Part shown: positions 1 through 32,354 of the stretch, piece by piece
Numbering within the stretch: position 1 is the stretch's first letter
Layout of the letters: each line of letters opens with the position of its first letter
Source: a virus
IMG/VR virus record: IMGVR_UViG_3300042507_001522
Location: 1-32,413 of that record
Reading direction: 5' to 3' (one strand)
DNA: 32,413 bases
Translations under genes and position numbers: made by a program
Notes under the pieces: generated by a model
What the model saw: only the letters and a program-made list of their open reading frames with translations
Told to the model about the DNA's origin: nothing
Database searches by the model: none

Positions 1-492
1 ATACCATTCAGAGTATACATAATAGTTTCCGTCTTCTGCTAAGAATTCGTCTATATCATCTTGGTATTTAATACACCATTTAGATATTATATTCTCTATG
101 TATGGATTCTGCCGCTGATCTGGAAGAGGCGGAGGGGCCTGAAACTTGATTCCTTGAACAGCAAAAAAACTTCTAATAGATCCACCTAGAAAATATCCTA
201 CCCCACAGTTCTGGTAATCATCAGAAATAAATAAACCCGCTATGTAATATACATCAGATCTTTCTGGTTCATACCACATAATTTTACCAATTATGTCATT
301 TTCCTGGAGAGTCATGTCAGATACAACAAACTCTTTATCATCGTAGTCGTCTGTTTGAATTAGGTATGCACTTCTAAATCTATTTTCAGATAATGATTTT
401 TCCATACAAACCCAAGCGGAGATATCAATATCCGGCCATTCATTATTATAGAAGTCTGGGTCGTGGACTATATCTTTGAATGTTTCTCTCAT
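1..492 (-). CDS. GNAT-like acetyltransferase-fold protein, partial (C-terminus beyond window edge)
   Basis: A minus-strand reading frame opens at ATG 492-490 and stays open for 164 codons to base 1, so the end is missing. Residues about 83-112 read as beta strand, then LFISDDYQNCGVGYFLGG, then a helix. This matches motif A of GCN5-related N-acetyltransferases, where Q/R-x-x-G-x-G/A binds the acetyl-CoA pyrophosphate (here QNCGVG, residues 94-99). The N-terminal part is acidic and aromatic. The substrate cannot be told. It is the only gene in the window on this strand and diverges from the gene at 547. An upstream ATG (500-498) hits a stop after three codons, which fixes the start at 492. There is no Shine-Dalgarno, but an extended -10 lies 6 nt before the ATG, which suggests a leaderless mRNA. 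The GNAT call is by motif only; the open frame is convincing. Confidence 0.6.
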   Translation of the reverse strand, partial: MRETFKDIVHDPDFYNNEWPDIDISAWVCMEKSLSENRFRSAYLIQTDDYDDKEFVVSDMTLQENDIIGKIMWYEPERSDVYYIAGLFISDDYQNCGVGYFLGGSIRSFFAVQGIKFQAPPPLPDQRQNPYIENIISKWCIKYQDDIDEFLAEDGNYYVYSEWY

Positions 493-498
493 AGATAC

Positions 499-507
499 AT
501 TATACCA
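499..507 (-). promoter_or_regulatory. Extended -10 promoter for the leftward gene (leaderless)
   Basis: On the minus strand the sequence reads TGGTATAAT, a perfect TATAAT (504-499) with the extended TGn element. It ends 6 nt before the ATG at 492, so transcription would begin at or next to the start codon. No clear -35 box is seen, as is usual for extended -10 promoters. Confidence 0.5.
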
Positions 508-533
508 AGTGAAATAAAACAATATTTATAGGC

Positions 534-539
534 TACAAT
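534..539 (+). promoter_or_regulatory. Putative -10 box of a leaderless promoter for the gene at 547
   Basis: TACAAT is followed by exactly 7 nt and then the ATG at 547. No Shine-Dalgarno is present. With the minus-strand -10 at 499-504 it forms a compact divergent promoter pair in the 54-bp intergenic gap. Confidence 0.4.
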
Positions 540-546
540 ATGATAT

Positions 547-1395
547 ATGATTAAATACCTTGGTGCAGTTGGGGCTTTCATACGTTTAAATGATAGTGAA
601 AATAAAACCTATACCCTTTTAAATGTATATTCTTCTTCAGCCGCACAACTTTCATTATTCTCCGCAAGCGTCAATAATTTATCTGGTGCTGTGACATTTA
701 ACTCTGCCTCAACATCTTTATATGTAAACGGAGTATCTGGGTCAGTCATTCCAGGTAAACAATGGGCGCATGTTACGTTCTCTTTTAATGATAAGTTGGC
801 CACCTATGACACCAATAATTTTCTAATTAGATTCGGACATGCTGCATCAAGTAACTTCAACATACAAAATCTTTACATATTAGAGAATTCATTTACTGAT
901 TCAGAAATTGGCTACCTTCATCAAGAATTTACAGGTGGCACAACAAATAAATTAACCGTTCCACCATCGGCTTCATACTCTATCAACATTATTGATTACC
1001 CAGAAACTAATTTTACCTCTGCCTCTACAAATGTAATTTATCAGCCATTATTTGGACAAAACAAATATCTAATGGATATAAGTGCCGTGGCGGAAGATAG
1101 CCTTAGTAAATTTGTTTCTGCATCAGTAATGACAAACGATAACTTGTACATAGACTCAGTAAACGTAAGTATTGGAGATAATATTTTATCTCTAGCAGAT
1201 AATCAAATATATCAGTTAACATCATCTTCACAACTTATTACCGTTTCAAGTTCTGTAGGAGATGTTGTTAAAGTTTTATATGGACAGTATTTCAACCGAA
1301 TCTCTTTCATAAAGACTGCGAGTGGGTTCAACGTTGAGCCAATAGTGGTAAAAATTAACTCATACCTGAACACAATACAGTCAAATAATGCCTAG
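547..1395 (+). CDS. LamG/concanavalin-like jelly-roll protein, probably virion-associated
   Basis: The protein has 282 aa and is rich in Ser, Thr, Asn and predicted beta strand. Residues about 30-125 look like the second half of a LamG or concanavalin A-like lectin sandwich: a strand with a small ligand loop (SLYVNGVSGSVI), a W-A-H-V-T-F-S-F strand, then NFLIRFG and NIQNLYILENSFTDSEI. The last two are the typical "index of residues, then helix" ending of LamG domains in phage tail proteins. The C-terminal half is another beta-rich region without a family I recognise. No signal peptide or membrane segment is seen. An in-frame stop lies just upstream (541-543), so the start at 547 is firm; the missing early LamG strands may mean N-terminal truncation. 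Its place directly before the head genes is unusual for an adhesion protein. Function is inferred from fold pattern only. Confidence 0.6.
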   Translation: MIKYLGAVGAFIRLNDSENKTYTLLNVYSSSAAQLSLFSASVNNLSGAVTFNSASTSLYVNGVSGSVIPGKQWAHVTFSFNDKLATYDTNNFLIRFGHAASSNFNIQNLYILENSFTDSEIGYLHQEFTGGTTNKLTVPPSASYSINIIDYPETNFTSASTNVIYQPLFGQNKYLMDISAVAEDSLSKFVSASVMTNDNLYIDSVNVSIGDNILSLADNQIYQLTSSSQLITVSSSVGDVVKVLYGQYFNRISFIKTASGFNVEPIVVKINSYLNTIQSNNA

Positions 1396-1397
1396 TG

Positions 1398-1406
1398 TGG
1401 TATTAT
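1398..1406 (+). promoter_or_regulatory. Extended -10 promoter for the head operon (leaderless)
   Basis: TGGTATTAT lies just after the stop of the preceding gene. Its last base is 7 nt before the ATG at 1414, and no Shine-Dalgarno is seen. The layout is nearly the same as that of the minus-strand promoter at 499-507. Confidence 0.45.
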
Positions 1407-1413
1407 TTGGTAC

Positions 1414-1740
1414 ATGGGACTTCAAGTAGTAAGAGATAAAAGTAACTTCGGCATCTATGTATGGCTTCTTCCAGAAGGTGGAGTATTCAAAGATGATGAT
1501 GATAATGTTCTTAACATTCCATCACAGCGCGGAGATATAACAAAGATGGCTGAACTTCGTAAGGTTGCGGCACATTATGGTCAACCAGATGGTCAGGCAG
1601 TATTCATTCCTGGTATTGGGCGGGTAACAGAAGAGGAATATCAGGAAGATAAGTACCGCATGGAGAATGGTTTATTAAGTTACGGTGACACAGGAGCGTG
1701 GAGAGATGCAGCAAGAACCAGAAGAGACCTGGATAGATAA
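1414..1740 (+). CDS. Small conserved phage protein upstream of the portal, function unknown
   Basis: The protein has 108 aa and a soluble, charged, mostly helical composition. An N-terminal strand pair (residues 3-19, VVRDKSNFGIYVWLLPEG) is followed by a DDDDNVLNIP turn, a helix (TKMAELRKVAAHYG), a loop rich in Gly/Pro (QPDGQAVFIPGIGRV) and a Lys/Arg-rich C-terminal helix. I do not recognise a named family. Its 3' end overlaps the portal gene by 35 nt, and it is the first gene after the 1398-1406 promoter, so co-expression with the portal is likely. Such small genes next to the terminase or portal often encode packaging or connector accessory proteins; that is inference from position only. 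Confidence 0.6.
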   Translation: MGLQVVRDKSNFGIYVWLLPEGGVFKDDDDNVLNIPSQRGDITKMAELRKVAAHYGQPDGQAVFIPGIGRVTEEEYQEDKYRMENGLLSYGDTGAWRDAARTRRDLDR

Positions 1741-3307
1741 CGTCGGCCTGAGTAAGGCCATGAGTTCAGAATCATTTATTCCTGTAGACAAAGATGATTT
1801 CAGCCAGGATGCCGATTCAATTCTTAACCTTAATGGTCTATCACAAAATTTTAAAAGATCCGTTAGACGTAAATTAAACAAAAGCCTCATAACTGCAGGA
1901 GGCGAAATTGTAACAGCAGAAGATAACATGTATGCTGGCGACGACGCTACATCTAAGCAGATTATTCCAGACAAGTATGGATACGGAATCTTTGACGTTG
2001 TAGAACCTCTTTATAATCCTTATGCATTGGCTAAGATCTATGAACTATCTGCCCCCAACTATTCAGCAATCAATGCTAAGGTGGCAAATATTGTTGGCCT
2101 TGGATATGATTTGTTGCCGACCCTCAATGTCATGGAAAAACTTGAATCCATTTCAAGCACAGAAGAAATTGGTAGAGTGAGAAGAAATCTTGCTCGCCAG
2201 AAGCATCGTGTAATTGATTGGCTAGAAACAAGAAATGACGATGATACCTTTACCATGACGCTGATGAAGGCCTACATTGATGCCGAATCAACAGGAAATG
2301 GGTACATTGAAGTTGGAAGAAAGACAACTGGAGAAATTGGTTACATTGGTCATATCCCCGCCCCTACAATGAGAGTACGTCGCCTCCGTGACGGATTTGT
2401 TCAAATTGTTAACGGTAAGGCTGTATTCTTCCGTAATTTCCAAGGTGAAGAAAAGAATCCCATTACCACCGACCCTAGGCCAAACGAAATAATTCATATC
2501 AAGAATTACACTCCAACAAATACTTACTATGGACTACCCGCTATTGTCGCTGCTAAGAATGCTATGGCAGGCAATGAATTTGCCTCCCGCTTTAATCTAG
2601 AGTACTTTGAGAACAAGGCTGTTCCCCGCTACATCTTCTGGCTTAAGGGTGCAAAGATGAGCCGCGCAGCAGAAGAAAGATTGTTTGAATTTTTCCAAGG
2701 TAATCTGCGCGGACAGTCCCATAGAACAGCCATTATCCCCATTCCTGGCGATACTCCAGATCATAAGGTAGAAATGAAAATGGAACCTATTGAGACCAAT
2801 ATCCAGGATTCATCATTTAATAACTATAAAAAGATGAATAAGGATGAAATCCTTATGGCTCACCGTGTACCCGCTTCAAAAGTAGGATCTACAGAAGGAA
2901 TTGGTTTGGCGGCGGCTAGAGAAGCAGATAGAACCTTTAAGGAACAAGTATGCAGACCAGCCCAAGATGCATTAGAAAAGAAAATCAACAAGATAATTGC
3001 TGAGAAAACTGATGCATTCAAGTTTGAGTTTAATGAACTCACCCTTACTGATGAGGAGACAAGATCTAAGATTGATGAGCGGTACCTGAGGATGCAAGTT
3101 ATTGTTCCTAATGAAGTAAGAGAACGACTTGGAATGTCTACCCTTCCTAGTGGAGACACCCCCGTTGTTCTTAATGCTCAAGCACAAGCAGAGCAAACTG
3201 CACAGTCAACAAGAAATAGAGTAAGAGATCAACAGCGTGCTTCAAATGCTCCAGATAACGATGAGTTAGGAAGAGCAACCCAAGGAGAAGGTAGGCAGCA
3301 AAATTAA
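1706..3307 (+). CDS. Phage portal protein (PBSX/HK97-like superfamily)
   Basis: This is the dodecameric ring subunit at the DNA-entry vertex, through which DNA is packaged and to which the tail binds. The 533-aa protein has the usual landmarks: YNPYALAKIYELSAPNYSAINAK before the core, TGNGYIEVGR (about residue 196), a clip strand set (IPAPTMRVRRLRDGF), PNEIIHIKNYTPTNTYYGLPAI with the long helix after it, and HRVPASKVG near the end of the stem. The C-terminal tail is Gln/Arg-rich and probably flexible. The frame also has a GTG at 1685, but ATG 1706 is preferred because AGGAG (1692-1696) sits 9 nt before it, while the GTG has no ribosome site. The gene overlaps the previous one and is followed by a 30-bp gap holding the next promoter. 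The portal call is secure; the sub-family is less so. Confidence 0.9.
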   Translation: MQQEPEETWIDNVGLSKAMSSESFIPVDKDDFSQDADSILNLNGLSQNFKRSVRRKLNKSLITAGGEIVTAEDNMYAGDDATSKQIIPDKYGYGIFDVVEPLYNPYALAKIYELSAPNYSAINAKVANIVGLGYDLLPTLNVMEKLESISSTEEIGRVRRNLARQKHRVIDWLETRNDDDTFTMTLMKAYIDAESTGNGYIEVGRKTTGEIGYIGHIPAPTMRVRRLRDGFVQIVNGKAVFFRNFQGEEKNPITTDPRPNEIIHIKNYTPTNTYYGLPAIVAAKNAMAGNEFASRFNLEYFENKAVPRYIFWLKGAKMSRAAEERLFEFFQGNLRGQSHRTAIIPIPGDTPDHKVEMKMEPIETNIQDSSFNNYKKMNKDEILMAHRVPASKVGSTEGIGLAAAREADRTFKEQVCRPAQDALEKKINKIIAEKTDAFKFEFNELTLTDEETRSKIDERYLRMQVIVPNEVRERLGMSTLPSGDTPVVLNAQAQAEQTAQSTRNRVRDQQRASNAPDNDELGRATQGEGRQQN

Positions 3308-10623: not shown

Positions 10624-10967
10624 ATCTAGCCTCCATGCTCGGAGAAGTCTTTCTACTAGGACATTGGAAAGACTACGAAGAACTTGAATCGTCGCTATCT
10701 ATGCCAGAACTTGCCGCTACATTAAAAGCAATTTATGAAGCGGAAAGAAGAAAGCAGAAGTTTATGGCCGCTCTTCAGGGCATAGACATTGACGAAAATT
10801 CTGAAGAACCAAAGGAGGAAGCCCGAATTCCTAGTGTAGAAGAAATTCAGGCTAGAGCAGTCGCTAGGCTGACTGGTGATACAAACATGGCTGGAGCAAT
10901 TGAACAAGGGTTTACCCCAGATATGGGCGTTATATATGAGTTAGCAGAGGGTGTTGAATTTGGCTAA
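10584..10967 (+). CDS. Tail assembly chaperone frameshift extension (lambda gpT-like part of G-T fusion)
   Basis: After the shift at 10584 the -1 frame reads PSSDGSGTRWEDLDLASMLG and goes on to 10967, adding 127 residues to the first 99 for a 226-aa fusion: join(10288..10584,10584..10967). The extension is helical and charged (YEELESSLSMPELAATLKAI, AERRKQKFMAAL) with an acidic linker (DENSEEPKEEARIP). The only early ATG in this frame (10635) has a GGGAGG 17 nt upstream, too far to work well, so frameshifting is the more likely route. In lambda the G-T form binds the tape measure while G surrounds it; I apply that by analogy. The 3' end overlaps the start of the tape-measure gene. Confidence 0.72.
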   Translation, partial: PSSDGSGTRWEDLDLASMLGEVFLLGHWKDYEELESSLSMPELAATLKAIYEAERRKQKFMAALQGIDIDENSEEPKEEARIPSVEEIQARAVARLTGDTNMAGAIEQGFTPDMGVIYELAEGVEFG

Positions 10968-13900
10968 CATTCACTCTACTATTACTTATAACGCAAATCT
11001 TTCTGCTGCCCAGGCACAGATCAAAGCCCTCACCACTCAGATTGGCGCTTTAACTGCTGCCTTTAACACCCTTGATAAATCCGCCCTTACTGCCCAAAGA
11101 AGTCTTGCTGCAACATTTGCGGCAGGAGTAGGGCAGGCTGGCGGATTTACAACTTCAACGGTAAAAGCAACTAGTGCAGTAGAAACTTTTGGCAGGCAAC
11201 TTGCTGCAAATCGCCTTACTATGCGTCAGTATTTCCGCGAGGCGATTACTGGGTATACTCGTGAAAATAGTTTGATGCGTAGGCTTGCTGAACAGCAAGT
11301 AAGATATCAACAATCAATGGCTGTACCCGTTGGCGGCGGACAGGCAATGATGATGACGCCTCAGAATATTAATGCAGCAAGTAATGCTGCTGCATTAGCA
11401 TCACAAAGATTCTCAGTATTTAATCAATTGGTTAATGGTGGCGCAACTGCAATGCTTAACTGGGGTAAGAATACCCAATGGGCTGGTCGCCAATTAATGG
11501 TTGGCTTCACAGTACCCTTGATGCTTTTTACCGCCGTCGCGTCTAAACAGTTTAGAGATCTTGATAAAGAATTAACTAGGTTCCAAAAAGTATACGGATC
11601 AGATCTTGGAAATGCAATTAGTGAATCTACTAATCGTATGCGAGAACAAGTTAAACAACTGGCATTTGATATTTCAAGCACCTATGGAATTGCCGCTAAG
11701 GAGACTGCTGCCTTAGCAGCAGACATTGCTGCTACTGGAGCAGAGGGTGAAAAACTTATTTCTGGAGTACAGCAAACAACTAGACTTGCAGTACTGGGTG
11801 AAGTAGATAGACAAGAGGCTATGAAAGCAACTCTATCATTACAGTCAGCCTTTAGAATGAATACAAATGAACTCGCTGAGTCTATCAACTTTTTGAATGC
11901 TGTAGAAAATCAAACGTCTGCAACATTGCAAGATCTTTCTACAGCAATTCCTAAGGTTGGACCAGTTGTTAGAAGTCTAGGTGGAGACATTAAAGATCTT
12001 GCAACATTATTGGTTGCTATGCGTGAAGGTGGTATTCCTGCAGCAGAGGCTGCGAATGCATTAAAGTCTGGCCTTGCCTCACTTATTAACCCAACAAAAC
12101 AAGCATCAGAGGTCGCAAAACAATTTGGTGTAGATCTGGTTGGTATTGTTGAAGCAAATCGTGGGCAACTTATGCCAACTATTTATGCTATGCAAGAGGC
12201 GCTTTCAGGCCTAGATAGTTTTTCAAGATCTAGGGTTATTGAACAGATATTTGGTAAATATCAGTTTGCAAGGCTGACAGCACTATTCGATAATATTGGA
12301 AGGGCTGGGTCACAAACTCAATCGGTAGTAGAACTTGCGTCTAAATCATCCACAGAACTCGCTGCTGTAGCGAATCAAGAACTTAGAATTCTTACGGAAT
12401 CAACGGCTGTTAAATTCCAGCGGACATTAGAAGACTTAAAAAATTCTATTATGCCAATTGGTCAGGTACTTACTGAAACGCTAATTCCAATATTTGAATT
12501 TATTGGTAGTGGGATGAAAACATTTGCATCCTTCTTCCAGGCCTTACCAGAGCCAGTTAAGAATTTTGCTAAATATGGGGTTGCGATTGCAGCATTGGCG
12601 GGTCCAATAATCATGTTGGTTGGCCTATTTGGAAACCTTATTGCTAATGGCCTTAAATTTGGCATGATGTTGACTAGGATCGGCGCAAGAATCGCAGGAA
12701 TTAAAACAGAAAAGTTTGAATTACTTACTGCAGATGTTATGGCTGCAAAACTTGGTGTGGACAGACTTACAACATCATTTGATACTCAGGAAAAGGCTCT
12801 CCTTAGACTTACAGGAGTTCTTTCTTCCTATGAAGCATCTCTTAGAAGATTAACTACTGCTAACCCAGCATTATTTGTTCCTGGGGCTATTCCAGGTGCA
12901 AGAGGTCAAATTCCTATTCGTCGTCAAGCAGGATCAACTAGACCAGAATTTGTACCAGGATCTGGGCGGGGGGATAAGATCCCAGCCATGCTTGAGCCTG
13001 GTGAATTTATTGTTAATCGTGCTGCTACAGAAAAATATGCCCCAGTTCTTATGGAAATGAACCGTGGAACATTAAAAGGTTTTCAAAAGGGAACTGGAGA
13101 AGAGAGTGTATCTATTAGGCCCCTTAACAAAGGAGACTCTGGATATTCAGCACCAAGTACTATTCGTGGTGGGGGGAATACTTCAGTAGGAGAGGGTGGG
13201 GCCAGAGGTCATATAATGGGAGTTCCATTAATACCTGGAACATCTGGTGGAAGGACTACTACAACTGGAGGAAAAAGATTAGTAATTGGTGGACAAGACA
13301 TTACCTGGCATAAACAATTTTGGTTAGAGGTAACTAAAGAAGAAAATAAATTAACAGAAGTTCTTAGAGGATCTTCAAGAAATACTCGTTTATTCAGTCA
13401 GTCCGTGCGCGAGGCGGCTGTCGCTCATGGTGCTACTCAAGAGCAGATAGATAGAATTCAAAGAAGAATAGTTAATGGAATAATACAGGATGAACAAGAT
13501 ATAGTATTGTATAAAGCAGCGTTACAGAATCTTGCATCTAAAATAGAAACTGGTTCTGTCCTCGTTACTGAAAAACCATTAAAATCAGCGGTGACAGCAA
13601 CTCCACGTTTAGGGCCAACTATTTCTAATGTTTTAGCGCAACAAACTCCTATGGTTGGCGCTACGACACAAGATTTTATTAAATTAAGACAGTATGCAAT
13701 AGAACAGTTTAAAAGAATAGAAAATACTAGCGGGGCAGTAGCACAAGCAGCAAGAGTAGGTCTAGCAAAATTTATTCAATCCATAGATGTTGAATTAAAG
13801 GCGCTTGGAAATATACCAGCAAGACTAGATAAATCGATTAGAGATGCTGCAAAGGCTCAGTCGCCAGCATTGAGATTTGATAAAACTGGAAAAGATATTG

Positions 13901-16900
13901 TGGATGGTCTAGATCAAGGTATAAGGTCAAAATCAAAACAGGCTAGACAGGCTGGTGTAGAAACTGCAAATGAAATAGTTGCTGGGGCCAGGGCTGTTAA
14001 TGGAAAAACTGGGTTTGGTATGGGTCCAGGCGGATCAATGGGATACTTTATGACGGGAGTATCTCCATATGCCACAGGAAGACTATCTGCCTCCGCATTC
14101 GATAAAAAAATGGCAGATATTTCAAAAATGGCTGGCCCAAGTTCTAGCCTATCCAATAGACCTACGGCGTCAACTGGTCCAGCAGTTTCAATAGCGGGGG
14201 CAAGAGACCAGGCTGAAGGTGGGATGCGTGGTACGGGAGCAATGAATGCAATGTTTGCCCTATCTATGGTTACTTCTAGCATGTCTATGATGAGCGGGGC
14301 ATCTCAGGAAGCAACTGCAAAACTGGGCCTCTTTACAACCGCTCTAATGACAGCCTCAATGCTGCTGATGATGAGAACTCCTGGCGCGGGGATGCCAAGT
14401 AATTTTCTAGGTCTGGGTAAGGCTGGATCAGCCCTGTCAGAAAGGGCGGGAATGCAGGCTGCACAAAGAGCAGTATCTGGAACAGGCCCCGCTGTTGCAT
14501 CAAATCTTGCCACAAGACAAGTTATGGCTGTTCGACCACATGCTGTTGGAGGGTTTACTAAAATAGGTGGAGGGCTGGCTACAGCCGGAGGTGCCTTATC
14601 AATGCTTGGGGGGCCTGTGGGAATGGCGTCAGCCGCAGCCATTACTGGGCTTGTAGCAGCATACCTTCTTGTTCAAAATGCAGCGGAAGAAGCAAGGAAG
14701 CGTTCAGTAGCCGCTTTTGAAGATCCTATTAAATCAGCAGAATATTTTGGTGTAGCGATTACTGATGTAACCCAACAGATGAAAGATCTTCAGACAGGAA
14801 TAGAAGAGCCTATCGATCAGGGTATTAGGGATGCTGTAAAACAAGATTACGCCCCACTAATTGAAAAAATTCGTTTTAGTGGCGCATCAGCAGGGGCAAG
14901 AGAATTATCTTTAGTTTTTAATAAAATGATTGCCTCTGGACTGTCCGCTGAAAGTGCTACAGCAGCAGTAAAAGCGATTGCAATAGAATCTGGTCAGGCT
15001 GGTGGAGAGGCATTTGCTACAGCATATCGTGAAGGTTTAATGCGATCAACAACTCCAAAAGATGTAGCAAATAATTTAGCGGCGCAGTTTGACCCTGAAC
15101 TAATGGCTAGAAATGCAGAAGAAATTAGAGCAAGTCTAGATCAAATGAATAAGGGCCTAATCCAGGATATTCGTGGTAACACAGCACAGTTACTAAATAA
15201 CAGCATTCTAGGTTTTGATCTTAAAAATCTTCCTTTAATCAGCAGTTTGCCGCTAGCAATAGCAAGTATGTTTAGTGATATAGATGATCAATTTAAACAA
15301 AGTCTTGTAACTTCTGCAAATTATAGTGATAGCGTAGAACAACTTACTGCAAATCTTTTAGAAAATATGGACGTTTCTTCTACACAAATGATAGGAATAG
15401 TTGAAACATTATTTTCTACATTTAAAGATGCCCCAACAGAAAGTATGCAGGCATTCGATAAAATTGCAGAAACAGCCCTATCTTTTAATAATGTAGACTA
15501 TGACCCAGCCCCGATTCAAGAATTTTTAAATACATTAGATCCTATTGCTTCTATTACACTTAGCCCATTAATTCAAGAGAACGAAGAACTTGCTTTTAAA
15601 ATTCTTAAAGCAACTGCAGCAGGCATGGATCTGCAAGATATTTTAGATGCAATAGCAAGCAATAGACTAGATATTGAAATTAATGTAAGAGTAAAAATTG
15701 CAGAGTCAGAGCAAGAACTTTCTCAACTAAGAAAAGATCTTTCTGAGGGAATTGAAGGAGATCTTGAAGGTGACGTAGAAAGATTAGACACAAGGATATT
15801 AAATCTTACAAATAGAATTAGCAATCTTGGCGAAAAAAGAGAAGAATCTCTTGAAAAATTGCAGGAAAACTTTGACGGAGAACAGAAAATTCGTGAGGAT
15901 TCAGTTGAGGCCCTAGAAGATGAGTTAGAAAATAAAAAAGAAGTATTCGAAGAAGAAATGAAGGCTCTAGATGATAGACAGGATAAAATAGAAAAATCCT
16001 CAGATGCCTACATAGAATCTCTTGAAAAAAATCAAAAAGCAGATTCATTCTATGCTCAACAAAGAAAAACTGCTTTTGGTGCGCTAGAAAAACTTGCTTC
16101 TGGTGATGTGTTCGGATTCCTTCAAGAGCGCGAACAAATGTCTGCCGATGCCCAAAACTTCTCTTATGATCAAATGATTTCCGATATTGAAGAAAGAAGA
16201 GATCTTGAATTAGATGCAATAGAAGAAATTAGAGACAGCCGTCAAGAAGAGCAAGATGAATATGAAAATATGATGCAAGACAGGATAAATTCTATTCGGG
16301 ACGTAATGGAAATGCAGCAAGAGGCCCACGACATAGAAATGGAAGATGAGAAAACAAGGTTTGATACAAAAATAGAAAATGCTCAAAAAGAATTAAGAAA
16401 TAAAAGAACGCAAAGAAAAGAAATACAAGACGTTATAGATGCAGTTAAAAATGATGAAATTCTAAGTAATGAAGAACTTTCTAAAGTTCTGCCTCCACTT
16501 CAAGCAAAGCAGTACGAACAAAAACAAAAAGAAATAATAAAGAATATTTTCTTGCTAGAAATGGAAAAATCATATGAAGAAGGTGTAACTCAGAATCAAG
16601 CAGTTCTTAGGTCTGCCGCTGCTGTCAGACCCCTACTTGAAGATTTAATGCCAGGAAGTTCCGCCCAAACAGCGGAAGATATTATGGGGTACCTTGGTGC
16701 AAATCCAGAACAAACATCATATTACGGCGCTCCCCCAGGAGTAGATCCAAGCGCAGCGGCCCGTCGTGGAAATACTGGAGGGTCAACAGGGCCAACAGCA
16801 CCTGAACCAGGGGATGATTTTAATCCAAATGAAACATGGGGTCGGGCAAGAATTGGAGAAGAAAAGGTTGGTCCAAATGGAATAACCTATAGATACATGG

Positions 16901-19900
16901 GGGATGGCAAATGGACTCCTGTCGCACAAAGAGCAAGTGGTGGTCCTATAGGATTTTCTGACGGTGGCGGCGGAAAAGTAACTGGTCCTGGTGGTCCTAA
17001 GTCTGATGTAATCCCTGCATACTTATCTAATGGTGAATATGTAATTCAAGCCTCTAGTGTAAGTAAATACGGCAAGGATATGATGGATAATATCAATGCT
17101 GGTAAGTTTGCGGGGGGTGGGCCAATATCAACATCTAGAGCCGCCTCTCAAGCCAAATCAACATATCGCGGGGCTCTGCCAGGACCAATGATGTTTTATG
17201 AAGGTGGCTATATCTCTGCTGACCGCGCTGAAACGACGGCTGCTGGAAACAAATATCTTGGTGGAGTTAATGTTAAGCCGCAGTATGCTGGTGGGACACC
17301 TGGAAATGTATATGGAAAGAAGAGATTGCGGAGAGAGCAAAATAACCCATATACTCGCGGCGGATATATGCAGCCTGGTGCAGGCGGCGGCGGAAGAGCA
17401 GGATCTGGCTTTAACTTAATGTTCCAGGGAATAAAGAATAGCATCGACCAGCAAGGCATTTTCTCAACCCTGGGATCTATGGTTTCTTCTATCGCTGCAG
17501 ACCCAGCCTCACTACTTCCATTCTATGGATTGTCTAGCATTGACCAATCAAACCAGCAAGGAAAGGATATTGCATCTGCCGCTGCACTTATGGAAATTCT
17601 TGGAGTTATTCCTGGGGTAGGTATAGGGTTTAAGGGTGCATCATTATTAGGACGGTCAGCCTCTAGAAGAGTGGCGACTTCTAGCGCAATGCAACCCCTG
17701 CAATCTGGTTTAATTCCACCTAAGCCTATTGCGATATCACAAATTACTAGTGATCTAAGGTTTTCTCTAGGAATGGGTGCCCCCAGAATTCTACCACAAC
17801 CATCAAAACCAACCGCAGCCGTGCCCTCCAGAGATATGCTCCTCCTTGAGTGGGCAAAAAGTATGGCTGTTGACGAAAATCAACTAGATAATGTTTTTGG
17901 AACACTAGTCCCTAATAGTCAGGGGGGAATTAGTCCTGGAGGCTTAGTTATTGGTAGGGACGGTGTTCGTAGATATGTTAAAGGTCCGTATGATTCTGAA
18001 TCTGGAGCAAAATCTGTTTATTTAGAGTCTTTAATTGCAAATGCATATAAGGCCCTTAATATGAATGTACCTGATGTAAGCCTTCTTAATATTGGGGCAA
18101 AAGAAAGATACTTCCCTGGGAAAAACCTCACACCAGAACTTGCTGCGATGGGACTAAACTATTTTCCACCTGGAGAACTTGTAACTTCAAGCACAATGTT
18201 AGATAATGTTAAACATGTTTCAGAATTTTTTGGAAAGAATCCAAACCGCGATTGGGCGGACGGATTAACATTTGTAGAATCACAATTAGATAGCAGTATG
18301 CAATCAAGGCTTGCAAGAGAGGGTGGAATAGGAAAGGCTGTAGATACACTATTTGGATTAAGAGATTCACATATATTCAATTATATTATTAAAGAAGATG
18401 AATCCATTCCTCTTGGCGCACCAGGAAGACTTATTCCATATAGAATAGATTTTGGAAGCAATGTTTTTCAAACTCCTGACGGCAGGCCAGTGACCAATGA
18501 TCCTACCGACCCATTAAAAATTCTTGACCCGAGGTACGGAAGTTCATTTGGTTTTGGAAAAGTAACTGGTTCTGTATATAAGCAACAAGTTCTTAGGTTA
18601 GAAGAAATTATTGGAGATGCAGGCGGGATAGGTGGCCTTATAGATCCTATTGTTGAAAAATTTGCACTTCAGGCTCCACAACATAGATTAGTTAATCCAA
18701 ATTTCTTAAAATTCGTTTTATTAGAACGTCTAAAGGCAATGGTCGAAGGAGCAAGAGGCTATGCTAACGGTGGACTGGTTCAAAAATTTGCTGATGGCGG
18801 AGAAGCACTCACTTTACCAAACAGGGGGCTTCCAGGTAAACTATCATTAATTAATAGAAATGATCCTAATACTCCTGCTAATGGTGGATTCCTTCCTGGG
18901 GTTGGAACTACAGGTGTTGCTGCGGCTGCACGACCAACAACTACAACTATTGGCGCTCAAGGTGGTCCTAATGGATGGCCTTGGATATCATCCTATAACT
19001 CTGGTTTACTGGATACTAAAAAGATCCCTGGTACTAACGTAAATCTGACCATGAATAAAGATGTTTTGCCATTGTTCTTAGCATTAGCAAGTGATTATAA
19101 TAGAACAATTAGAAAAATTGGCCCAGGCAGCGGCGGTTTCGATCCAAGAACAGATAGGCCAGAAAGCGAAAGGGCAAGGTCAAATCATCCATCTGGAACA
19201 GCAATGGATATTAACTGGTCAGAAGAAGGCGCTCTGTCAAATAGTACAGATTTATTTAATTGGTGGAAAACAGGAAAAACTTCTGCTGGGGCACCCTGGA
19301 AACCTATTTCTCCACAACCATATAAAACTGCTTTAAGTTTAAAGAACAAATATAAAGTTGTTGACTGGTTTGGACCCACTTCATTAGGTGGCTATATTAA
19401 TGGCACACCAGACTATATGCATTGGCAAATATCTCAAGGCGGTGGAGTAGTTACCCCACAAAGAGTAGCACAGGTCATAGGCGAACTAGGAATTAACCCA
19501 GATGGAACATTCAACAGGCCTAATACTTATGCGGCTGGAGGATTTATTTCTGGACCTGGCGGACCAAGATCTGATATGATTCCAGCAATGCTTTCTAATG
19601 GAGAATATGTAGTTAAAGCATCTAGTGTATCCAAGTATGGTAAAGGATTTATGGATCAGATTAACTCTGGTTCACTCAATCCATTCCAAGGTTCATCTAT
19701 GCAACCTAGAATGTTTGCAGACGGTGGAATGGTTGGGCCTGCACCTATGCCAGCATTTAGTATGCCAGCAATGGCAGATACATCTGTTGGAGTTAATAAC
19801 ACTAACTATGCTGGAAACTCTTCTTCAACAAGAAATAACACCAAGGTTAAGGTTGTTATAAATGGTGCTGGCGGCAAGGGTGCTAACGCAATTGCTAATA

Positions 19901-19959
19901 AAGTTATTAGTATGATTAACTCTGCAAACAATAGAAGAAACCATAGTAGGAGTATCTAA
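10960..19959 (+). CDS. Giant tape-measure protein with kinase-like and M15 peptidase domains
   Basis: The protein has about 2999 aa and sets tail length. Residues 175-505 form a TP901-type tape-measure core (FRDLDKELTRFQKVYGSDL, then AALAADIAATGAEGEKL and LLVAMREGGIPAAEAANALK). A hydrophobic segment lies near 538-566, others near 1110-1140 and 1215-1235. A motif IPAMLEPGEF/IPAYLSNGEY/IPAMLSNGEY with following SSVSKYGK recurs at 667, 2009 and 2865. Residues 1577-1835 are a charged coiled coil. Residues about 2291-2605 look like a PI3/4K- or HipA-type kinase (K2341, E2356, D2469-x-H-x-x-N2474, D2497-F-G). Residues 2670-2830 match M15 peptidases (H2743 and D2750 in SNHPSGTAMD, H2821 in MHWQ). 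GTG 10951 and TTG 10954 are alternative starts; TTG 10960 has AGAGG 9 nt upstream. The peptidase should open peptidoglycan during DNA entry; the kinase role is unknown. Confidence 0.9.
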   Translation: MANIHSTITYNANLSAAQAQIKALTTQIGALTAAFNTLDKSALTAQRSLAATFAAGVGQAGGFTTSTVKATSAVETFGRQLAANRLTMRQYFREAITGYTRENSLMRRLAEQQVRYQQSMAVPVGGGQAMMMTPQNINAASNAAALASQRFSVFNQLVNGGATAMLNWGKNTQWAGRQLMVGFTVPLMLFTAVASKQFRDLDKELTRFQKVYGSDLGNAISESTNRMREQVKQLAFDISSTYGIAAKETAALAADIAATGAEGEKLISGVQQTTRLAVLGEVDRQEAMKATLSLQSAFRMNTNELAESINFLNAVENQTSATLQDLSTAIPKVGPVVRSLGGDIKDLATLLVAMREGGIPAAEAANALKSGLASLINPTKQASEVAKQFGVDLVGIVEANRGQLMPTIYAMQEALSGLDSFSRSRVIEQIFGKYQFARLTALFDNIGRAGSQTQSVVELASKSSTELAAVANQELRILTESTAVKFQRTLEDLKNSIMPIGQVLTETLIPIFEFIGSGMKTFASFFQALPEPVKNFAKYGVAIAALAGPIIMLVGLFGNLIANGLKFGMMLTRIGARIAGIKTEKFELLTADVMAAKLGVDRLTTSFDTQEKALLRLTGVLSSYEASLRRLTTANPALFVPGAIPGARGQIPIRRQAGSTRPEFVPGSGRGDKIPAMLEPGEFIVNRAATEKYAPVLMEMNRGTLKGFQKGTGEESVSIRPLNKGDSGYSAPSTIRGGGNTSVGEGGARGHIMGVPLIPGTSGGRTTTTGGKRLVIGGQDITWHKQFWLEVTKEENKLTEVLRGSSRNTRLFSQSVREAAVAHGATQEQIDRIQRRIVNGIIQDEQDIVLYKAALQNLASKIETGSVLVTEKPLKSAVTATPRLGPTISNVLAQQTPMVGATTQDFIKLRQYAIEQFKRIENTSGAVAQAARVGLAKFIQSIDVELKALGNIPARLDKSIRDAAKAQSPALRFDKTGKDIVDGLDQGIRSKSKQARQAGVETANEIVAGARAVNGKTGFGMGPGGSMGYFMTGVSPYATGRLSASAFDKKMADISKMAGPSSSLSNRPTASTGPAVSIAGARDQAEGGMRGTGAMNAMFALSMVTSSMSMMSGASQEATAKLGLFTTALMTASMLLMMRTPGAGMPSNFLGLGKAGSALSERAGMQAAQRAVSGTGPAVASNLATRQVMAVRPHAVGGFTKIGGGLATAGGALSMLGGPVGMASAAAITGLVAAYLLVQNAAEEARKRSVAAFEDPIKSAEYFGVAITDVTQQMKDLQTGIEEPIDQGIRDAVKQDYAPLIEKIRFSGASAGARELSLVFNKMIASGLSAESATAAVKAIAIESGQAGGEAFATAYREGLMRSTTPKDVANNLAAQFDPELMARNAEEIRASLDQMNKGLIQDIRGNTAQLLNNSILGFDLKNLPLISSLPLAIASMFSDIDDQFKQSLVTSANYSDSVEQLTANLLENMDVSSTQMIGIVETLFSTFKDAPTESMQAFDKIAETALSFNNVDYDPAPIQEFLNTLDPIASITLSPLIQENEELAFKILKATAAGMDLQDILDAIASNRLDIEINVRVKIAESEQELSQLRKDLSEGIEGDLEGDVERLDTRILNLTNRISNLGEKREESLEKLQENFDGEQKIREDSVEALEDELENKKEVFEEEMKALDDRQDKIEKSSDAYIESLEKNQKADSFYAQQRKTAFGALEKLASGDVFGFLQEREQMSADAQNFSYDQMISDIEERRDLELDAIEEIRDSRQEEQDEYENMMQDRINSIRDVMEMQQEAHDIEMEDEKTRFDTKIENAQKELRNKRTQRKEIQDVIDAVKNDEILSNEELSKVLPPLQAKQYEQKQKEIIKNIFLLEMEKSYEEGVTQNQAVLRSAAAVRPLLEDLMPGSSAQTAEDIMGYLGANPEQTSYYGAPPGVDPSAAARRGNTGGSTGPTAPEPGDDFNPNETWGRARIGEEKVGPNGITYRYMGDGKWTPVAQRASGGPIGFSDGGGGKVTGPGGPKSDVIPAYLSNGEYVIQASSVSKYGKDMMDNINAGKFAGGGPISTSRAASQAKSTYRGALPGPMMFYEGGYISADRAETTAAGNKYLGGVNVKPQYAGGTPGNVYGKKRLRREQNNPYTRGGYMQPGAGGGGRAGSGFNLMFQGIKNSIDQQGIFSTLGSMVSSIAADPASLLPFYGLSSIDQSNQQGKDIASAAALMEILGVIPGVGIGFKGASLLGRSASRRVATSSAMQPLQSGLIPPKPIAISQITSDLRFSLGMGAPRILPQPSKPTAAVPSRDMLLLEWAKSMAVDENQLDNVFGTLVPNSQGGISPGGLVIGRDGVRRYVKGPYDSESGAKSVYLESLIANAYKALNMNVPDVSLLNIGAKERYFPGKNLTPELAAMGLNYFPPGELVTSSTMLDNVKHVSEFFGKNPNRDWADGLTFVESQLDSSMQSRLAREGGIGKAVDTLFGLRDSHIFNYIIKEDESIPLGAPGRLIPYRIDFGSNVFQTPDGRPVTNDPTDPLKILDPRYGSSFGFGKVTGSVYKQQVLRLEEIIGDAGGIGGLIDPIVEKFALQAPQHRLVNPNFLKFVLLERLKAMVEGARGYANGGLVQKFADGGEALTLPNRGLPGKLSLINRNDPNTPANGGFLPGVGTTGVAAAARPTTTTIGAQGGPNGWPWISSYNSGLLDTKKIPGTNVNLTMNKDVLPLFLALASDYNRTIRKIGPGSGGFDPRTDRPESERARSNHPSGTAMDINWSEEGALSNSTDLFNWWKTGKTSAGAPWKPISPQPYKTALSLKNKYKVVDWFGPTSLGGYINGTPDYMHWQISQGGGVVTPQRVAQVIGELGINPDGTFNRPNTYAAGGFISGPGGPRSDMIPAMLSNGEYVVKASSVSKYGKGFMDQINSGSLNPFQGSSMQPRMFADGGMVGPAPMPAFSMPAMADTSVGVNNTNYAGNSSSTRNNTKVKVVINGAGGKGANAIANKVISMINSANNRRNHSRSI
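12958..13050 (+). repeat. Tape-measure motif copy 1 (IPAMLEPGEF)
   Basis: This encodes GSGRGDKIPAMLEPGEFIVN and following residues, the most diverged of three copies. The pattern is G-x-x-x-D-x-I-P-A-x-L-x-x-G-E-(F/Y)-(I/V)-(V/I). It precedes a Gly-rich linker. Confidence 0.65.
16984..17118 (+). repeat. Tape-measure motif copy 2 (IPAYLSNGEY)
   Basis: This encodes GPGGPKSDVIPAYLSNGEYV, then ASSVSKYGKDMMDNINAGKF. It lies directly after the coiled-coil region and is closely similar to copy 3 (19552-19677). Confidence 0.8.
19552..19677 (+). repeat. Tape-measure motif copy 3 (IPAMLSNGEY)
   Basis: This encodes GPGGPRSDMIPAMLSNGEYV, then ASSVSKYGKGFMDQINSGSL. It shares most residues with copy 2 over about 42 aa and follows the M15 peptidase domain near the C-terminus. 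Confidence 0.8.
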
Positions 19960-31153: not shown

Positions 31154-31615
31154 ATGTCTGGCTATAAATTAATACCTTCCGATCATCCTAAATCTATCAA
31201 CGGTTTGTACTATGAGCATATTCTCGTTATGGAAAAATTTCTAGGCAGGAAGTTAAAAGATTATGAGTCAGTACATCATATAAATGAAATAAAAACAGAC
31301 AATAGCATAGAAAATCTTTTTGTATGCCATAGGCGTGAGCATGATAAGGCGCATGGTATGAAAACTGTATCTATGTATAAACTTAATCCATCATGGACTA
31401 AGAAGATATGTAAGTATTGTGGGATAGAATTTTATGGATCTCCGTCCCTAATGAAGAACAGAGTAAAATGTAGGGCTAACTGCAAAGCCATAAAGGTTGA
31501 CAAGACCTGTGGCTGGTGTGGTAAGATTTACACCGTTCCTGTAATTAAAGAACATTTATGGGACTTTTGCTCACGAATATGCCGACGAAAGGCGAATAAT
31601 GACAAACGATCTTAA
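31154..31615 (+). CDS. Free-standing HNH endonuclease with two C-terminal zinc fingers
   Basis: The 153-aa protein has the phage HNH motif in YEHILVMEKFLGRKLKDYES and VHHINEIKTDNSIENLFVCH: H41/H42, N54, H63 and H67 are the expected active-site and metal positions. The rest holds eight Cys as two matching sets, C86-x2-C89...C106-x3-C110 and C119-x2-C122...C139-x3-C143, each a small zinc finger likely to bind DNA. This is the plan of mobile HNH homing endonucleases that nick at fixed sites and spread between phages. It has no Shine-Dalgarno, starts 3 nt after the previous stop and overlaps the next gene by 17 nt. A role in packaging, as for some HNH proteins near terminases, cannot be excluded. 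Confidence 0.82.
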   Translation: MSGYKLIPSDHPKSINGLYYEHILVMEKFLGRKLKDYESVHHINEIKTDNSIENLFVCHRREHDKAHGMKTVSMYKLNPSWTKKICKYCGIEFYGSPSLMKNRVKCRANCKAIKVDKTCGWCGKIYTVPVIKEHLWDFCSRICRRKANNDKRS

Positions 31616-32354
31616 GTGGATGATGGTATCTGACGTACACTTTCCACGACATGATCCGCGCAAGGTAGAACTATTTCTTAAGGTTATGAAGTGGTTTAAG
31701 CCAGAAGCCGTGGATCTACTTGGTGATATTGATGATGCTGATTCAACTAGCCGCTGGGCGGCAGATAAGCCAGCAGAAATGTCAGTATCAATTAATGATG
31801 GAGGAGTGGATGGAACTAGAAAATTCTTACAAGATATCAGGGCTATCGTACCGAAGGCTGACTGTCATTTTCATGACGGGAATCATGGCTGGACTCGCCA
31901 CGGCGACTATCTTGCAAAAAAGGCTCCAGCGTTTCTAGATGTAGTCACACCAGACTCACTTTATGAGTATTCTAAGGTTGGTTTTGAGTGGCACCTATAC
32001 CAAGATCCTCCTGTTAAAAGATTTGGCGATATCTATGCTCATCACGGCGAGTCTATCTCTAAGCATTCTGGAGAGTCAGTACGAAATGATGTTAATAACT
32101 GGGGCGTTTCACTAGTTAGAGGGCATTCGCACAGAATGGGTGCATATTTCCAGACATACAATCTTTCTGGACAAGAATTGCGTGGATATGAGATCGGTCA
32201 TCTGTGTGATGAAGATCAGATGGACTATTCAATTCAAAAGAATTGGCAGCCAGGATTCGCTGTAGCACATGTTGTAAATGATTACCCCCATATCCAGTTG
32301 ATTCAGATTCATGACTATACCTGTGTGGTAGATGGAAAGGTATTTACTGCATAA
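31599..32354 (+). CDS. Calcineurin-like metallophosphoesterase
   Basis: The 251-aa protein carries the full two-metal motif set: SDVHFP (D12, H14), LLGDIDD (42-46), GNHGWTRH (94-101), YAHHGES (H148, H149) and GHSHRMG (175-181). It is a hydrolase of phosphate esters, possibly on nucleic acid or nucleotides; in the GNH motif Gly replaces the usual Asp or Glu (GNHG versus GNHD/E), as in some phage enzymes. The length is usual for phage phosphoesterases. GAAAGGCG just upstream serves as the ribosome site. It overlaps the HNH gene and is coupled to the next by TAATG. The substrate cannot be read from sequence; a role in DNA or RNA metabolism is inferred from context. Confidence 0.88.
   Translation: MTNDLKWMMVSDVHFPRHDPRKVELFLKVMKWFKPEAVDLLGDIDDADSTSRWAADKPAEMSVSINDGGVDGTRKFLQDIRAIVPKADCHFHDGNHGWTRHGDYLAKKAPAFLDVVTPDSLYEYSKVGFEWHLYQDPPVKRFGDIYAHHGESISKHSGESVRNDVNNWGVSLVRGHSHRMGAYFQTYNLSGQELRGYEIGHLCDEDQMDYSIQKNWQPGFAVAHVVNDYPHIQLIQIHDYTCVVDGKVFTA

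Follow-up and report, generated by a model that had tools for sequence, protein, structure and literature searches.

In a 54-bp gap near the left end of this phage DNA, an earlier note had placed two divergent leaderless promoters and had proposed that they might act as a switch. Are there two such promoters in the gap, and do they form a switch, or do they belong to two genes that came together separately? The window, i.e. the whole stretch of DNA that was analysed, is a 32.4-kb IMG/VR phage fragment whose portal region resembles that of Streptomyces phages, among them Mildred21 (Stanwilliamsviridae), the 20 listed of 131 records being 64–67% identical to it at the nucleotide level. The genes from position 547 on include pre-portal, portal, protease, virion structural, connector and tail genes, and all 24 genes called in the window lie on the plus strand; the minus-strand gene at 1–492, which runs open to the window edge, is absent from these calls. 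Positions 10951–19959 encode a 3002-residue tape-measure protein in which residues 2668–2759 are endolysin-like (phrog_1512), and 31154–32354, the right end of the virion run, holds genes for an HNH endonuclease (phrog_10730) and, after it, a metallo-phosphoesterase (phrog_221). The features at the left end are as follows.

1–492, minus strand: gene for a GNAT-like acetyltransferase, truncated at the window edge, with 164 codons in view (open frame; PF00583).
493–546, no strand: intergenic gap with both predicted promoters (sequence and shuffles).
499–507, minus strand: extended −10 of the predicted minus promoter, TGGTATAAT, 6 nt before ATG 492, retained in the relative L007.
530–539, plus strand: −10 of the predicted plus promoter, TACAAT (534–539), with AGGC upstream; its position is conserved in relatives.
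547–1395, plus strand: gene for a 282-residue protein, probably a LamG-like (jellyroll) phage protein (weak profile and structure matches).
1398–1406, plus strand: extended −10 of the next predicted leaderless promoter, TGGTATTAT, 7 nt before ATG 1414.
1414–1740, plus strand: pre-portal gene, 108 residues (phrog_9394, E 1.3e-24).
1685–3307, plus strand: portal protein gene (phrog_12, E 2.7e-56).

The reverse complement of positions 499–504 is TATAAT, preceded by TGG (505–507) and separated by six nucleotides (493–498) from the ATG that begins at base 492. On the plus strand, a spacer of seven nucleotides (540–546) separates TACAAT from ATG 547. The two hexamers are 29 bp apart (505–533), and the predicted starts 55 bp. 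Both hexamers, their distances to the start codons and the distance between them had been given in the earlier note, and all agree with the sequence to the base. Homologs of both flanking proteins align from residue 1, and an earlier start for the plus gene is excluded because an in-frame TGA lies at 541–543. To the geometry we added dinucleotide shuffles of the gap, in which a hexamer of the form TA...T with at least five of six matches to TATAAT was accepted 5–8 nt before the start. Of the shuffles, 13.9% had a qualifying hexamer on the minus side, 9.6% had one on the plus side and 1.1% had both. Judged by shuffles alone, the pair is suggestive only and either half taken singly is weak evidence; the case for the plus side is carried by the relatives.

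The plus protein was matched directly in 18 viral loci, and further loci were recruited through the next two genes. After loci sharing both the 60 nt ahead of the gene and its first 300 nt had been removed, 37 remained; loci truncated ahead of the gene start do not enter the counts of plus and pre-portal −10s. Among the 24 distinct sequences with at least 50% identity (23 and the window), 19 carry the plus −10 at 5–8 nt, against 1.94 expected, and three more carry it at 9 nt; the remaining two have it at 26 nt (L035) or not at all (L045). Below 50% identity the −10 was found in 3 of 14 sequences (0.67 expected), with two (L052 and L057) scored as misses where the extrapolated starts are not start codons. 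All these loci are related, and the counts are not independent events. The −10 persists despite differing upstream genes: at 5–9 nt it is present in all seven sequences with a divergent neighbour and in 15 of 17 without one (neighbour orientation was taken from ORF calls, of which the two for L036 disagree). The plus promoter therefore needs no partner. When 25 sequences were anchored on the −10, AGG was favoured just upstream, and no −35 element was seen, the mean best match to TTGACA being 2.92 of 6, compared with 3.02 in shuffled sequence.

Leaderless genes are described as common in Actinobacteria (PMC3160421, PMC4633059), and the cultured relatives of the window infect Streptomyces and Rhodococcus. 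The TA-led class of leaderless actinobacterial genes, as characterised in PMC3160421, has a TANNNT whose first T lies ∼12 bp ahead of the start codon; the genes of the window family share this placement and differ in being phage genes, many of them with an extended −10. For the gene at 547, TANNNT ∼6–7 nt before the start is found above chance in homologs, and its predicted leaderless start is strongly supported by this comparison.

The product of this gene is less clearly defined. The 282-residue protein had no match in PHROG, matched Laminin_G_3 below the cut-off (E 0.052), and yielded a structure model with a mean pLDDT of 77.5, for which the BFVD matches were LamG/ConA-like phage proteins (E 5.9e-5 and weaker, with low TM-scores). 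A fold search against the PDB returned no match at E 0.001 or better, and no match was found in annotated cultured phages; in Coruscant, the gene preceding the pre-portal gene, and hence in the same place, is annotated as a LamG-domain gene. The protein is probably LamG-like, and its weak matches to lectin-type jellyroll domains are silent on function.

A different picture emerged for the minus gene. Its protein matches PF00583 with an E-value of 7.5e-5 (23.4 bits; cut-off 20.7), and homologs among the loci compared were found on the contig of L007 (96%) and in L003 and L004 (36%). The counterpart in L007 is an ORF of 169 residues; L007 retains both −10s, and the three of 54 gap bases that differ from the window all lie outside the hexamers. 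In L003 and L004 a leader containing a Shine-Dalgarno-like GGAG lies between the −10 and the homologous gene, so a leaderless start is not a constant feature of the GNAT-like gene. The two sequences that bear on a minus leaderless start, those of the window and L007, are near-identical, and for the gene starting at 492 such a start is only plausible. Of the proposal that both sides are leaderless, the plus half stands on the relatives, while the minus half is weakened by its leadered homologs. In L005 and L006, bases 505–541 are identical to those of the window and everything to the left of them differs, including the minus −10; the place of the minus gene is taken there by another gene, by eye a glycosyltransferase. 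By eye, the minus strand of L005 also carries TGATATAAT ∼125 nt upstream of 1161; a 10-codon ORF starts 6 nt further on, ends in a stop that overlaps the ATG of the divergent glycosyltransferase gene, and may be a leaderless upstream ORF coupled to that gene.

The earlier note had further described the gap as the only place where gene direction changes. This is true within the window and reflects the window edge: in the 5.8 kb of L007 that we examined, the GNAT gene is the sole reversed gene, and with plus genes on both sides of it the direction change amounts to one reversed cargo gene. Five upstream L007 proteins were scanned, and one of them matches a family of GlcNAc glycosyltransferases that the divergent gene of L038 and the second minus gene of L004 also match. 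Moron-type cargo genes are recognised by patchy presence at the same place, their own promoter and their own terminator. Some relatives carry the minus gene in this position and others lack it there; for a promoter of its own, the gene has only the predicted −10. A simple scan of L007 4300–5100, around the GNAT gene, found no terminator-like site, and we did not adopt the moron label.

Observed in the sequences are the positions of the two hexamers, the conservation of the plus −10 and the joint replacement of the minus gene and its −10. We consider it probable that the gap holds two separate leaderless promoters, one conserved and heading the run of virion genes, the other brought in with a reversed cargo gene. 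Each −10, which has no recognisable −35, is placed such that the first transcribed base would be that of the start codon itself, yielding a leaderless mRNA. The host housekeeping polymerase would use the −10 without a −35 and start at bases 492 and 547, both of them predicted starts, and ribosomes would load directly onto the 5′ AUG. The plus promoter would be the conserved one that heads the virion genes; the minus promoter would have arrived with the single GNAT-like gene just upstream, and belongs to this replaceable gene. The gap accordingly looks like the product of gene swapping rather than a genetic switch.

Three other explanations have to be weighed. The least improbable of them, although we regard it as unlikely, is that the hexamers are chance occurrences in AT-rich DNA and that both genes lie on longer transcripts starting further away. 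The gap is indeed AT-rich, each side alone reaches a match in roughly a tenth to a seventh of the shuffles, a −35 is absent, and a simple sigma-70 scan of positions 1–3000 showed no excess (11 found, 11.2 expected). Against this stand the spacing of the plus −10 in relatives and the signal at 1414 described below, both of which lie far above expectation. For the minus gene alone, the hexamer may be due to chance.

Still less probable is a regulated divergent switch, in which each polymerase excludes or helps the other, or a factor is bound between the two promoters, such that expression alternates between the GNAT-like gene and the virion genes. Given the footprint sizes of RNA polymerase, two holoenzymes would probably clash in 54 bp; with −10s and predicted starts as close as those of the window, two polymerases probably cannot both sit in the gap, and mutual exclusion is plausible. 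Precedents exist for divergent promoters that interfere and for leaderless ones that switch. The E. coli bidirectional promoters of PMC12825309 resemble the window in divergent initiation with steric conflict, and strong activation in one direction is described there as able to repress the other; at basal level, however, all five of those reported as tested were too weak for competition. The cI/cro region of phage PY54 is a real switch with two divergent leaderless mRNAs, the starts of which were mapped by RACE (PMC4488713). The window likewise has two divergent leaderless mRNAs, here predicted ones, from one intergenic region; as far as PY54 is described in that source, it differs in having two repressor genes with an operator between them, in the place of which the window has a GNAT-like and a LamG-like gene and an operator was not found. 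Regulator genes with operators between them, the mark of a cI/cro-type switch, were not found in the window: neither product resembles a regulator, and the single inverted repeat detected in 440–620 is a 9-nt palindrome covering the plus start. Moreover, most relatives have the plus promoter without a partner, and close relatives carry different partner genes, the sequences of L005 and L006 diverging from that of the window to the left of 505. On these grounds we abandoned the switch suggested in the earlier note. No tRNA or Rfam RNA was found in the window.

A single bidirectional promoter with a shared −10, as in E. coli, is highly improbable for the window and was rejected on geometry, since its −10s are separate and its starts 55 bp apart, compared with the common distances of 10, 18 and 23 bp given in PMC12825309; it is possible for the relative L038, whose predicted starts are 22 bp apart, near the 23-bp class, and which alone fits the geometry.

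Divergent leaderless promoters are already known in phages, and the pair of the window, read as two separate promoters, is one more case. The PL1/PR2 promoters of the cluster O mycobacteriophages (Corndog group), as presented in PMC4351075, are likewise divergent, lie in an AT-rich intergenic region of an actinobacteriophage and are both leaderless by prediction; they separate divergently transcribed operons, whereas one side of the window pair is a single reversed gene beside virion genes. For leaderless promoters of Stanwilliamsviridae, no paper was found among the matches listed from the open-licence literature.

We searched 1.52 Mb of heavily overlapping DNA for gaps with predicted leaderless starts on both sides and obtained six distinct sequences. 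Two were dropped: L002 is the L007 contig in the other orientation, and one match, with a gap of 22 and a 74-residue minus ORF inside the pre-portal gene, was spurious. With the window and L007 (gap 54) counted as one, three unrelated divergent pairs remain, a count given without a formal expectation. The second, in L038, is a 21-bp gap just upstream of 1105, between a glycosyltransferase gene and the plus gene divergent from it, and the overlapping −10s share TATA. The third, at L017:1665–1699 and in near-identical relatives, has a gap of 35 with the hexamers 11 bp apart, between a 102-residue GTG-started ORF and a 573-residue structural-looking ORF. Just upstream of 4134 in L036 we noted by eye divergent −10s 19 bp apart (TATACT on the minus and TACAAT on the plus strand), the minus side of which is probably leadered with AAAGG.

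At genome scale, the commonest spacing of −10s before early ATGs in the window and three relative contigs was 6 nt (11 cases), with 6 cases at 7 nt and 1–5 at spacings of 0–5 and 8–10 nt; a second cluster at 25–28 nt (up to 8) agrees with leadered promoters of the ordinary kind. For 1505 internal ATGs the counts were 3 at 6 nt and 12 at 7 nt, within the range of 1–16 over all spacings. The count used 328 greedy ORF calls, spurious short ORFs included. A conserved 70-residue gene has a predicted leaderless start at L139:583 (plus), L144:15882 (minus) and L151:11658 (plus); the large ORF divergent from it in L144 and L151 presumably encodes a ribonucleotide reductase. Endonuclease_7-type genes with predicted leaderless starts at L144:12923 and L151:16764 (both minus) fit mobile genes that carry their own minimal promoter.

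A broader and distinctly tentative reading is that the lineage uses promoters without a UTR as a standard plug, the whole signal being a −10 of about nine bases placed 6–7 nt from the start. Cargo might then be swapped at the promoter edge in either orientation, repeatedly creating divergent leaderless pairs. The three pairs of mutually unrelated genes, whose gaps measure 54, 35 and 21 bp and of which the extreme case shares one TATA, could be understood in the same speculative way.

The signal before the pre-portal gene is stronger than the divergent pair. Any in-frame start within 60 nt was allowed in this count, and the shuffles were given the same freedom. TAnnnT lies 5–8 nt before an in-frame start in all 49 distinct pre-portal loci, which include the window and Mildred21 (9.51 expected), and 48 of them have TGnTAnnnT at 6–7 nt from an in-frame ATG (0.7 expected); in three (L134, L133 and L067) the start used is displaced from the aligned position by 24–42 nt. 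A pre-portal homolog is present in 136 annotated phage records, from which 13 cultured phages, nine of Streptomyces and four of Rhodococcus, were picked for taxonomic spread and examined without a shuffle control. The annotated start follows TAnnnT by 6–7 nt in 11 of the 13. For the other two, Tomas (L155) and LukeCage (L156), an in-frame ATG 15 nt upstream of the annotated start fits this spacing by eye, and the annotated starts look to be 15 nt too far downstream; with both moved, TAnnnT precedes the ATG by 6–7 nt in all 13. All four Rhodococcus phages carry the TG extension, which none of the nine Streptomyces phages has. By eye, 7 of the 13 have a terminator-like hairpin with a T run ahead of the signal.

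Taken by itself the divergent pair is ordinary; its moderate interest comes from the family-wide leaderless signal to which it belongs. The predicted leaderless pre-portal promoter of the family is the more useful result: it is testable in laboratory strains, would correct the two annotated start codons of Tomas and LukeCage, and prompts the question of why a leaderless message would open the head genes in these phages.
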